A stretch of DNA of 64,000 nt from Sporolactobacillus laevolacticus DSM 442 (GTDB taxonomy: Bacteria; Bacillota; Bacilli; Bacillales; Sporolactobacillaceae): NCBI RefSeq assembly GCF_000497245.1, contig NZ_AWTC01000006.1, positions 124,001 through 188,000 on the forward strand, in the 5' to 3' direction. Position 1 is the first letter of the stretch, and each line of letters opens with the position of its first letter. Position numbers and translations under genes: made by a program. Shown here in pieces: positions 18,393 through 49,833 of the stretch. The notes under the pieces were generated by a model that searched no databases, was not told the DNA's origin, and worked only from the letters and a program-made list of their open reading frames with translations.

Positions 18393-19943
18393 TTATTTTT
18401 TCTTTTTCATTGACCACTCTTCAATATCCCAGATCCTCGTCACCCATTCTTTATAGAATGAAGGCTCATGGCTAACCACCAATACGGTACCTTCATAATC
18501 TTCAAGTGCTTTACTTAGCGCCGCCTTAGCATCAACATCCAAATGATTAGTCGGTTCGTCAAAGATCAGCACATTGCTTTTCTGCAGCATCAGCCGTCCA
18601 ATGCGAACCTTCGTTTCTTCTCCACCGCTAAGTGTATCCATCGGTTGACGCATATGCTCTGCGAATACACCGCATTGAGCCAAATGCTGACGAAGCACCT
18701 TTTCGGGAATATCCGGGAATTGATCCATCATCCATTCAAGCGGCGTCAGATGAGGCGGTGCGGATAACTGAGAAAAATATCCAGGCAATACACGATCGCC
18801 TCTCATCATTTTACCGGAGAGCGGGGCCAGCTCACCTAATAGTGTCCTCAGCAACGTTGTTTTCCCAATACCATTGTGACCGGTAATCGCGATTTTTTCA
18901 CCGCGCACAATCTTCGCAGACATCGTCGGGAATAGCTGATGCTCATAACCAACACCTAAATCTTCCGCTGTGAAAATCAAACGAACTGGCTGGCTGCTCA
19001 CTTTGAAGTGGAACTTGGGTTTTCGAGTTTGAGCAGGCGGGTCAAGACGATCAATTCTGTTGAGCTGCTTTTCTCTGCTTTTTGCCTGTTTCGCTGTGGC
19101 AGTCCGCACTTTATTCTTTTGAATATAAGTTTCTAATTTTTTTATTTCCCTTTGTTGCTGCCTAAAAGCGATCTCCTGCTGCTCGAGACGCGCTTCGTGC
19201 TGCTTCAGAAACGACTGATAATTCCCGACATAACGGTTCAGCTGCTGGTTTTCGAGATGGTAAACATACTGAGAAATAGCATCCAAAAAGTGTGTGTCGT
19301 GGGAGATCACAATAAATGCATGCGGATAGGCATTCAGATAATTGGTCAGCCAGTCGATGTGCACGGTATCTAAATAATTGGTTGGTTCATCCAAAAGAAG
19401 CACTTCTGGTTTTTCAAGCAGCAGTTTGGCAAGACAGAGTTTCGTCAACTGTCCGCCACTCAGCTGATCGACATCTGTATCCAGCCCGATTGCTGTCAAT
19501 CCAAGTCCATCTGCCATCTCGCGGATTCGCGCGTCAATTGTGTAAAAATCATTGGCAATAAGCTGTTCCTGCAGCTGGCCGTACTGATCAATTATTTCTG
19601 GATCGGCTTCTGGTTCCTGCATGCTCACTGCAAGCTCATTCATCTTCTGTTCAGCATCAAACAACTCTTTAAAGGCATCCTGCAAGCTTGCATACACACT
19701 TTTTTCTTTTCCAAAATGCAGATGCTGCTCAATTACGCCAATTTTCAAGTCCTGTCGTGTATCCATACTGCCGCTATCCGGCAGCAACTCGCCGAGCATC
19801 AACTTCAGAAAGGTTGATTTACCCGCACCATTATGACCAACGAGGGCAATATGCTCTCCTTCCATCATACGAAAATTCATATCTTTATAAATCAGCTTAT
19901 CTCCATATGAGAAAGCCATGTTTTTTGCTTCGATCAGTAACAT
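18393..19943 (-). CDS. ABC-F ATPase (ribosome-protection/translation-factor family)
   Basis: The 516-residue protein has two ABC domains and no membrane domain. Walker A motifs are GHNGAGKST and GHNGIGKTT, signatures are LSGGQLTKL and LSGGEETKV, and Walker B motifs are VLLLDEPTNYLD and VLIFDEPTNHLD. A charged inter-domain linker follows the first ABC (about 240-300), typical of YfmM/YdiF-type ABC-F proteins that bind the ribosomal E site. The ATG at 19943 has GGGGAG upstream; a longer frame would run back into the leader. The leader holds a 12-codon peptide gene and an intrinsic terminator, as in inducible antibiotic-resistance ABC-F genes. Confidence 0.9.
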   Translation of the reverse strand: MLLIEAKNMAFSYGDKLIYKDMNFRMMEGEHIALVGHNGAGKSTFLKLMLGELLPDSGSMDTRQDLKIGVIEQHLHFGKEKSVYASLQDAFKELFDAEQKMNELAVSMQEPEADPEIIDQYGQLQEQLIANDFYTIDARIREMADGLGLTAIGLDTDVDQLSGGQLTKLCLAKLLLEKPEVLLLDEPTNYLDTVHIDWLTNYLNAYPHAFIVISHDTHFLDAISQYVYHLENQQLNRYVGNYQSFLKQHEARLEQQEIAFRQQQREIKKLETYIQKNKVRTATAKQAKSREKQLNRIDRLDPPAQTRKPKFHFKVSSQPVRLIFTAEDLGVGYEHQLFPTMSAKIVRGEKIAITGHNGIGKTTLLRTLLGELAPLSGKMMRGDRVLPGYFSQLSAPPHLTPLEWMMDQFPDIPEKVLRQHLAQCGVFAEHMRQPMDTLSGGEETKVRIGRLMLQKSNVLIFDEPTNHLDVDAKAALSKALEDYEGTVLVVSHEPSFYKEWVTRIWDIEEWSMKKKK

Positions 19944-20011
19944 ACGTACACTCCCCTTATTTGCGGCCTTCAAGAAGCGAACAGATAAGGGCCTTTTCCG
20001 AATCCATTTGA

Positions 20012-20043
20012 AAAAGGGCGAAACAATAATGCTTCGCCCTTTT
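20012..20043 (-). terminator. Attenuator terminator in the ABC-F leader
   Basis: Perfect 11-bp stem AAAAGGGCGAA / TTCGCCCTTTT with a 10-base loop and T run on the minus strand. It lies 69 bases upstream of the ABC-F start and downstream of a leader peptide gene, so it can stop transcription before the structural gene. Confidence 0.85.
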
Positions 20044-20138
20044 AGTCTGAAGATCAAACGTTAGGAGCAGAAACATCCATGATCTGTTGTCACAACTCAT
20101 TGGCCTGTTTTAAATGAAAAAGGCAGACTTCACCTGTA

Positions 20139-20177
20139 TCAGGCCATTTTAAGTTGCAGACAATCAGATAAAACCAT
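20139..20177 (-). CDS. Leader peptide upstream of the ABC-F gene
   Basis: Twelve codons (MVLSDCLQLKMA), ATG at 20177, with AGAGGAG ten bases upstream. The last codons pair with a downstream segment (TGGCCTG / CAGGCCA), so a ribosome stalled on this frame would disturb that stem and could change folding of the following terminator. The design is that of drug-sensing leader peptides ahead of resistance genes. Function is inferred. Confidence 0.6.
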   Translation of the reverse strand: MVLSDCLQLKMA

Positions 20178-20250
20178 CGATGTTTCGCTCCTCTTCATTA
20201 ATTATTTATTCTATTTTAATCCTTCATTCGTTTAAATGCAATGTCAATGG

Positions 20251-20736
20251 TCATGTTCGATTAAAGTCATACGTCAATTCAAGTTCATGTTCAATCGGAA
20301 TGCCATCGTTTCCTATTAATGGAATTGATGGTTTCAGCTTTCTCGCTTCAATAACCGCTCCAATCCTCAATCCCGATAAAGTAAAGCCCCTTTTTTGATA
20401 AAAATGCAAAGCATGCAAATTGTCGTTCGTTGTTGTCAAATAAAGGCGCCCTAAATTCTGTTCCTCAGTGGCTCGCACGATTGCTTTTAGCAAGGCCGAG
20501 CCAATACCATGATGTTCTATGAAACTGTCAAGTGATATGATTTCAATGCCTTCCGATGATTCCCTATAGGTCAGCATGCCAACGAGCTGAGTATTCTCAA
20601 ATGCAAGGAAGCCCGGCAAGTTTGTAACATCAATAAGTTCCCCATGAATGGCCATCGATCTTCCGCCCCATCTCATAACCACTTGTTTTTCAATTTCTTT
20701 CCTGTCTTTCTCACAAATCGGTCTAAACTCAGCCAT
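20251..20736 (-). CDS. GNAT-family N-acetyltransferase
   Basis: The 161-residue protein has the acetyl-CoA motif EHHGIGSALLKAIVRATEE followed by LYLTTTNDNLHALHFYQKRGF, the standard GNAT beta-bulge and helix. Substrate unknown. It ends immediately before the region that should hold the ABC-F promoter. The ATG follows GAGAGGTGA. Confidence 0.85.
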   Translation of the reverse strand: MAEFRPICEKDRKEIEKQVVMRWGGRSMAIHGELIDVTNLPGFLAFENTQLVGMLTYRESSEGIEIISLDSFIEHHGIGSALLKAIVRATEEQNLGRLYLTTTNDNLHALHFYQKRGFTLSGLRIGAVIEARKLKPSIPLIGNDGIPIEHELELTYDFNRT

Positions 20737-49617: not shown

Positions 49618-49833
49618 TGTTCGAAAAGCAGGACAAAAAGGGCCAAGAAGGTCAAGAAGGTCAAGAAAACGCTGCTTTGAGCACCGGAGCGTATGAATAT
49701 AATACGTGAGGAACGGAAAAGCAAGTTGACGCAGAGAACTTCCGCAGGATGCGGTGACTTCTGCGTTATGCACAGGACGTGCATGAATTTAGCAGAAGAT
49801 CCGTTTTTACCTTTTTCCCGGACTTTTCGAACA
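49618..49833. mobile_element. MITE-like element with 11-bp terminal inverted repeats
   Basis: A 216-base non-coding unit bounded by TGTTCGAAAAG and its exact inverse CTTTTCGAACA. Inside are a GGTCAAGAA tandem motif, and palindromic words GGAGCGTATG...ATACGTGAGG and GTGCA...TGCAC. It encodes no convincing protein. It probably depends on a transposase elsewhere or is a structured dispersed repeat; copy number must be checked in the genome. Confidence 0.6.

Follow-up and report, generated by a model that had tools for sequence, protein, structure and literature searches.

The stretch of DNA analysed here, hereafter the window, comprises 64,000 nucleotides (nt) of Sporolactobacillus laevolacticus DSM 442 (assembly GCF_000497245.1, contig NZ_AWTC01000006.1, positions 124,001 to 188,000), and carries on its minus strand the gene of a 516-amino-acid ABC-F protein (18393..19943), whose leader encodes a 12-codon peptide and probably controls the gene by attenuation. 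Every leader element that the preliminary description had named was confirmed base for base in the minus strand of the window sequence.

The ABC-F gene and its leader

The leader begins at a putative promoter (20213..20241), read from the sequence, whose -35 box TTGCAT and -10 box TAAAAT are 17 nt apart and whose end lies 35 nt upstream of the upstream open reading frame (uORF). The promoter script ranked another pair first in the window, the pair just named being chosen by reading; in all 12 of the other uORF-bearing Sporolactobacillus leaders a pair with the same spacing stands 32-35 nt upstream of the uORF, and in the leader L029, which is without a uORF, the script returned no good pair. 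Directly upstream of this promoter, on the same strand, lies a GNAT acetyltransferase gene (20251-20736).

The uORF, MVLSDCLQLKMA plus a stop codon (20139..20177), is led by the Shine-Dalgarno (SD) sequence AAGAGGAG (20188..20195), and its assignment rests on the sequence, on homologues and on a codon test. Past its stop comes a small conserved hairpin, AGGTGAAGTCTGCCT, with a T run (20117..20135), recognized from invariant bases and from pair changes across leaders. According to the fold, the SD, the start and the codons of the uORF all lie within a large leader hairpin, stem-loop 1 (SL1, 20064..20192), the putative anti-antiterminator, whose base the SD overlaps. The preliminary description had proposed a stem over the last codons of the uORF, and TGGCCTG (20146-20140) does pair with CAGGCCA (20107-20101), which 7 bp are the top of the larger hairpin (20192-20064). 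An intrinsic terminator (20012..20043), supported by sequence, fold and script, follows with the stem AAAAGGGCGAA/TTCGCCCTTTT, a perfect 11 bp (20043-20033/20022-20012) that, with G-U pairs counted, was scored as 13 pairs and -19.9 kcal/mol; a further hairpin in the fold, SL4 (19954..19991), pairs with the SD of the ABC-F gene (AAGGGGAG, 19958-19951). The SD-led 12-codon frame and the perfect terminator followed by the ABC-F start at 19943, both announced in that description, stand in the sequence as it gave them; unmentioned there were the large hairpin over the uORF SD and start codon and the third hairpin, over the ABC-F SD. A scan of the window for promoter and terminator consensuses gave chance-level results (2 terminators, versus 2.7 expected), which simple scan missed the terminator of the ABC-F leader; folding plus stem scoring detected it.

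Regarding the protein itself, the NCBIfam model NF000355, a general one for ribosomal-protection-like ABC-F proteins, gave 401 bits (cut-off 380), and the named antibiotic-resistance (ARE) subfamilies of that collection stayed far below their cut-offs (for example OptrA, 281 of 1450 bits; Vga, 270 of 725 bits). The ABC-F is present in all 15 genomes of the genus; the window's own genome holds four further ABC-F places above the NF000355 cut-off, and the leader is single-copy there. Among the matches listed (15 of at least 5000 records), the closest plasmid-borne relatives are unnamed ABC-F proteins no more than 49% identical. The PADLOC matches, the best being to mad3 (179.5 bits), seem to reflect general ABC/ATPase similarity, and a defence function was discarded. 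By its sequence pattern the protein may be YfmM-like. The YfmM group is classed as housekeeping (PMC11381351) and is listed in PMC6723617. The window ABC-F is not proven to be a resistance factor.

Conservation and folding of the leader

The leader core, built into a covariance model (R1), was matched in 13 of the 15 Sporolactobacillus genomes and in 17 of the 26 family genomes. Across the 398 Bacilli genomes sampled, 25 had matches at E ≤ 0.01; 14 of the 26 places were below 2e-8, and the weaker matches included hairpin-only cases. Neither the search of the whole window nor a permissive search of eight loci found an Rfam family for the leader; elsewhere on the minus strand of the window a Bacillaceae-1 RNA (RF01690) was recorded at 49741-49808 (67.9 bits). 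Within a set of 53 loci, the uORF is present at 10 of the 13 named Sporolactobacillus loci and at 9 of the 40 others, the carriers outside the genus being Virgibacillus, Bacillus sp., Pseudalkalibacillus, Tumebacillus, Heyndrickxia, and Pseudoneobacillus. The terminator was found in all 22 leaders in which it was sought (21 by script, L070 by eye). The conservation of frame and terminator among orthologues, on which the preliminary description had made its proposal depend, is therefore there: the uORF, the terminator and the layout are kept.

Twelve codons are the length of 31 of the 40 tabulated uORFs, several of which come from the same species. The 26 distinct 12-mers have S (24) or T (2) at position 4, V (19), C (5) or I (2) at position 6, L (18), F (6) or R (2) at position 7, and A at position 12 in 23 instances, which peptide type may be written MxxSxV[LF], mostly with 12 codons. 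When the single-base codon differences were counted among 20 leaders (the pairs not being independent, and the 9-codon leaders L016 and L060 being excluded), in the uORF frame 336 were synonymous and 310 were not, versus 112 and 655, and 40 and 717, in the other two frames; and because the in-frame differences are thus far more often synonymous, the frame is very probably translated.

Peptides of the same type also stand ahead of transporter genes in three relatives (L095, L097, L094: MKLSVVRMLVFA, MKLSLSVVRMLVFA, MDLSVIRLLVLA). Two of these transporters match the major facilitator superfamily (MFS) model TIGR00900 below its cut-off, and the third is an MFS protein by reading, with no family match; L097 matches R1 weakly (E 0.002). 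For two loci, L103 and L089, no downstream ABC-F appeared in the script output. Certain individual leaders depart from the common form. In L016 (genome G005; 1243-1272) a stop occupies codon 10, where the relatives have a sense codon, so that the peptide reads MFLSVVLAL and the remaining leader is intact; the uORF of L060, from another genus, likewise has 9 codons. In S. vineae (L018/L029) the uORF is lost, and the leader keeps TGGCCTGA with what follows it, as well as the terminator, which arrangement looks like a natural deletion. The Alicyclobacillus orthologue (L073) has, by eye, the hairpin and a frame ending in ISARLMLAVA and a stop, with no ATG at the usual place.

Folding of the leader RNA had been proposed as a check in the preliminary description, and the 275-nt RNA gave a minimum free energy of -103.2 kcal/mol versus -63.9 (standard deviation 4.7) for its dinucleotide shuffles, none of the 200 being as low (z -8.3). 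The upper part of SL1 contributes a z of -5.9 in the window, with means of -5.3 in 13 Sporolactobacillus leaders and -4.0 in 9 others; for the base of SL1 the values were -7.4, -1.9 and -2.0, respectively. On a cross-genus alignment RNAalifold retained the small hairpin alone, because the SL1 arms are unalignable across genera.

The folding model provides a candidate antiterminator, whose 5' half, GAUGUUUCUGCUC (20065..20077), is the 3' arm of the SL1 base and whose 3' half, GGGCGAAGCAUU (20028..20039), is the 5' arm of the terminator. Its probability was taken as that of the terminator 5' arm pairing upstream in a transcript halted within the terminator loop; and, so defined, it rose in the window from 0.31 without a ribosome to about 0.8 when one stood at codons 1-4, the helix 20077-20065/20039-20028 passing from a probability of 0 in the free RNA to about 1 with the ribosome at codons 1-2. 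With larger 5' ribosome footprints, codons 5-6 also freed the antiterminator and codons 8-9 did so in part (0.61-0.71). Means went from 0.42 in the free RNA to 0.73-0.76 at codons 1-4 in the 13 Sporolactobacillus leaders, and from 0.52 to 0.67-0.72 in the 9 others, with a rise of at least 0.2 at codon 1 in 14 of the 22 (10 of 13 and 4 of 9, respectively). Since it is stalls at codons 1-4 that free the modelled antiterminator, the stem over the last codons, though real as a pairing, is unlikely to be the switch for which the preliminary description had taken it.

Distribution of the post-stop hairpin

The small hairpin with its T's usually begins two to four bases past the uORF stop. Its bases G, G, G-U, and U are invariant in 21 leaders of many genera, and its outer pair alternates between G-C and A-U, with both sides changed in 5 of 19 and the pair broken in 1. 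The consensus is ANGGGANANGUNUGYCCNUUUU, and the search pattern GGGANANGTNTGCCCNTTTTNA, with one mismatch allowed, found 120 places in 101 of the 398 Bacilli genomes, against 6 for a reversed-pattern control. The divergent window copy, AGGTGAAGTCTGCCTTTTTC, escapes the pattern; its link to the consensus comes from the aligned homologous leaders. The element is largely confined to Bacilli, because a stricter pattern without mismatches, run on 398 phylum genomes, matched 3 of the 16 Bacilli versus 1 of the 382 others. Of the 120 places, 119 (all but G096:C27) were read together with the sequence on either side; for the logo and the terminator counts, 22 that lay inside long frames or had no plausible gene were set aside by reading, which left 97. 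An A two bases 5' of the GGG is found in 97% of the 80 non-RLR kept places and in 76% of the 17 RLR ones, or in 99 of the 119 when all the places read are counted.

The first gene downstream of the 119 places belongs in 63 instances to a single blastp cluster of ABC ATPases, about 62 of which are ABC-F proteins by reading (L222 looks like a different ABC ATPase); L139 alone in this cluster was scanned with hidden Markov models, giving 323 bits to NF000355 (cut-off 380) with its end cut by the locus. Nine places stand ahead of genes in an Erm cluster (the one scanned gave 249 bits to NF000499, cut-off 212), three ahead of genes in an RlmA-II/TlrB-like cluster (the one scanned gave 130 bits to Erm32, less than the cut-off), two ahead of Mef-like genes (304 and 313 bits, below the cut-offs), and one each ahead of an Mph gene (563 bits to MphL, cut-off 612), a Fex-like gene (587 bits, cut-off 900, the gene being cut by the locus end), and an hflX gene (456 bits, cut-off 217). 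Two precede RibD genes (L156, L157; one scanned: 418 bits, cut-off 156), and there the hairpin begins 18-19 nt past a flavin mononucleotide (FMN) aptamer. Reading alone named MFS transporters (L094, L124, L125), methyltransferases (L127, L129, L137), GNAT proteins (L191-L193), RidA-like proteins (L119, L152, L153), and an APH-like protein (L133), of which L094, L119, L124, L125, L127, L133, L137, and L191 had no NCBIfam match at the limits used. About 20 places are singletons or geneless and resemble chance occurrences.

The peptides in front of these genes differ as well. RLR-type peptides precede, in the script listing, most of the Erm genes, one RlmA-II-like gene and hflX; x-L-R frames, identified by eye, precede the Mef, the Mph and the remaining RlmA-II-like genes; and in other ABC-F groups longer leader frames run through the hairpin, the window type being SxVL. 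One such group comprises L116, L117, and L123 (proteins beginning MQIKAEQ or similarly); the leader frame that passes through its hairpin reads MYFARVITFDFANNG.. in L116 and L123. In L119, L152, and L153 the hairpin follows a uORF (MKKRxIRFLSMGIGFSTAVFF and a stop in L152 and L153) and a RidA-like protein lies downstream, and the GNAT-like proteins of L191, L192, and L193 stand behind hairpins flanked by repeats (CATTA.. / TAATG..). A peptide-coding origin of the hairpin, which NGIRMPFF in some leaders might bring to mind, was abandoned, the hairpin lying 3' of the stop codon in others; resemblance between the loop and 16S rRNA, and loop pairing inside the leader, were dropped after inspection by eye only.

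Two catalogued elements contain the same hairpin. The consensuses of the Rfam families rliI (RF01487) and ncr1575 (RF02452) include it (GGcgAAGUccgCC; GGaUUAgUCUgcCCAUUuu), although those families are catalogued as small RNAs and describe whole leaders, and the window leader does not match them. Four of 20 loci searched resemble rliI or ncr1575 below the gathering score (best, 30.7 of 45 and 53.6 of 60), and an ABC gene is reported to have rliI as its putative conditional terminator (PMC8079631). The uORFC-6-1 motif (PMC8632094), compared by its description, is an attenuator candidate of Bacillales whose RLR leader precedes hflX, the gene for which it is mainly described; our L224 is a hairpin-bearing leader with an RLR peptide ahead of hflX. 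In the literature searched, so far as the texts were available, no description of the shared hairpin or of the window leader was found.

Proposed mechanism and its alternatives

The layout agrees with that published for vmlR of Bacillus subtilis (PMC9226507), the likeness that the preliminary description had drawn. In the window, too, a uORF with its SD lies at or inside the first stem-loop and an intrinsic terminator stands between the uORF and the gene; and, if the folding model holds, the resemblance would extend to the anti-antiterminator, to an antiterminator with an apical hairpin, to the SD-sequestering SL-4 and to dual attenuation of transcription and translation. In contrast, vmlR has the tripeptide MIN as its uORF, whereas the window uORF is 12 codons long and has a conserved core; a role in resistance is proven for VmlR and not for the window ABC-F; and the window hairpin is without an exact TTNTTT. 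The leaders of cplR, lmo0919/Rli53, and lsaA (PMC10201436, PMC8079631) likewise place ABC-F genes behind a uORF, though one of 3-4 codons, and for cplR and lmo0919 the conditional terminator has been demonstrated in those same studies. The tlrB (yxjB) leader of B. subtilis (PMC6851288) shares the leader peptide—of 9 codons in tlrB—the terminator and the SD-sequestering hairpin, but has an RYR arrest motif and precedes an rRNA methylase gene, whereas the window peptide is without RxR. The window leader is probably an attenuator of a known kind, well conserved and two-level, with a peptide type whose description we did not find in the literature consulted.

We consider it likely that the leader combines ribosome-mediated transcription attenuation with translation attenuation, as in vmlR, and that the post-stop hairpin is a pause site. 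The anatomy, the conservation, the folding excess and the spread of the hairpin, as given above, were computed directly; the stalling, the antitermination, the pausing and the inducer we infer as follows. By default the 12-codon leader would be translated fast, the ribosome would depart and SL1 would refold, sequestering the 3' arm able to pair with the terminator, so that the latter would form, and SL4 would mask the ABC-F SD in any read-through RNA. Upon induction, a translation inhibitor or some other translation defect would keep a ribosome on the first codons and SL1 open; the freed 3' arm of SL1 and the 5' arm of the terminator would then constitute an antiterminator with a small apical hairpin, allowing read-through by the RNA polymerase, and the freed SL1 arm would also pair, by its upper part, into SL4, helping to expose the ABC-F SD. 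The post-stop hairpin and its T run, the transcription-side part, would pause the polymerase until the ribosome loads.

Several results weigh against this mechanism. At equilibrium the complete terminator prevails in the window at 0.96-0.98 whatever the ribosome position, and therefore the switch must be kinetic. The antiterminator is already high without a ribosome in L024 (0.82), L037 (0.94), L033 (0.99), and L055 (0.87), and falls with a ribosome at codon 1 in L036 and L055. In a partner-swap and shuffle test of the 22 leaders its pairing had no co-variation support: mean native and swapped energies were -8.2 versus -9.1 kcal/mol in the 13 Sporolactobacillus leaders and -9.4 versus -8.2 kcal/mol in the 9 others, and with respect to shuffles the mean z was -0.2 in both sets. 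The native partner of the SL1 base is seldom the best among swaps (1 of 13; 3 of 9). The accessibility of the ABC-F SD changes from 0.35 to 0.48 at codon 2 and does not rise at codons 5, 9, and 12. The uORF is missing in 2 of the 15 genus genomes and from 3 of the 13 named Sporolactobacillus loci, and the script detected no such leader ahead of Paenibacillus orthologues. Finally, the window hairpin is followed by a T run but by no exact NusG motif TTNTTT, which in a NusG-dependent pause lies at -11 to -6, the hairpin being placed 11-12 nt upstream of the RNA 3' end.

A pause site is nevertheless the best reading of the post-stop hairpin, because the hairpin is weak, has a T run and lies upstream of the decision point, and because pausing has published roles: it operates in the leaders of tlrB (PMC6851288), vmlR (PMC9226507), and ribD (PMC12288461), and in tlrB the pause hairpin is required to synchronize ribosome and polymerase (PMC6851288). 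Despite the missing TTNTTT, the window copy may be a hairpin-stabilized pause. Since unlike sensor peptides and a riboswitch share the hairpin, it probably does not belong to the peptide sensor. The hairpin and T run could instead be an early terminator or a protein-binding site, for which speak the conservation of loop bases beyond the needs of a pause hairpin, the T run itself, and the exact TTNTTT in just 36 of the 97 kept places. We hold this to be rather unlikely, however, in that the stem is weak (-2.5 to -5.2 kcal/mol, five forms folded), a separate terminator-like hairpin occurs within 215 nt downstream in 49 of the 97 kept places, versus 4 of 97 shuffles, and the hairpin also stands behind the two FMN aptamers, where no leader peptide is involved.

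As to the dual nature of the proposed attenuation, SL1 and SL4 could gate the SD by themselves, the terminator being minor. SL4 does cover the ABC-F SD, and the pairing of the freed SL1 upper arm with SL4 is the better-supported of the long-range pairings (z with respect to shuffles of -2.5 in the window, and means of -1.8 in the 13 Sporolactobacillus leaders and -4.0 in the 9 others); but the presence of terminators in 22 of 22 leaders, one of them recognized by eye, makes translation attenuation alone improbable. Still less do we expect an attenuator of the leu/ilv type, in which the leader would sense a charged tRNA such as that of Leu upon amino-acid starvation: although the peptides are rich in Leu and Val, there is no run of a single codon, the shared residues are scattered (S4, V/C6, L/F7, Q8, A12), and the downstream genes observed are those of ABC-F proteins and transporters, not of biosynthesis. 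A decayed or constitutive leader without present regulation, to which the lost uORF of S. vineae, the stop at codon 10 in L016 and the further relatives without a leader might point, is the least credible of all, frame and structure persisting in the greater part of the genus and in families beyond its own.

Beyond the window, and with an attenuator that includes a polymerase pause as the preferred reading, we lean slightly toward the view that the hairpin is one portable pause module of Bacilli, reused before unrelated ribosome-drug resistance genes and behind FMN-riboswitch aptamers, and thereby marking an inducible resistome. That view covers the ABC-F, Erm, RlmA-II-, Mef-, Mph-, and Fex-like genes and hflX, whose sensor peptides differ. 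In some leaders the hairpin may be shared through descent of the whole leader and its movement between genes—the RLR type looks like a whole leader so moved—which possibility leaves the pause reading unaffected.

The occurrence of an SxVL-type leader before both ABC-F and transporter genes means that its inducer can be sought directly. Inducible resistance leaders that were discovered separately appear, moreover, to share one transcription-side part; and if that is true, a short sequence search would flag inducible resistance genes in Bacilli, and pausing at this hairpin would account for a step common to many attenuators.

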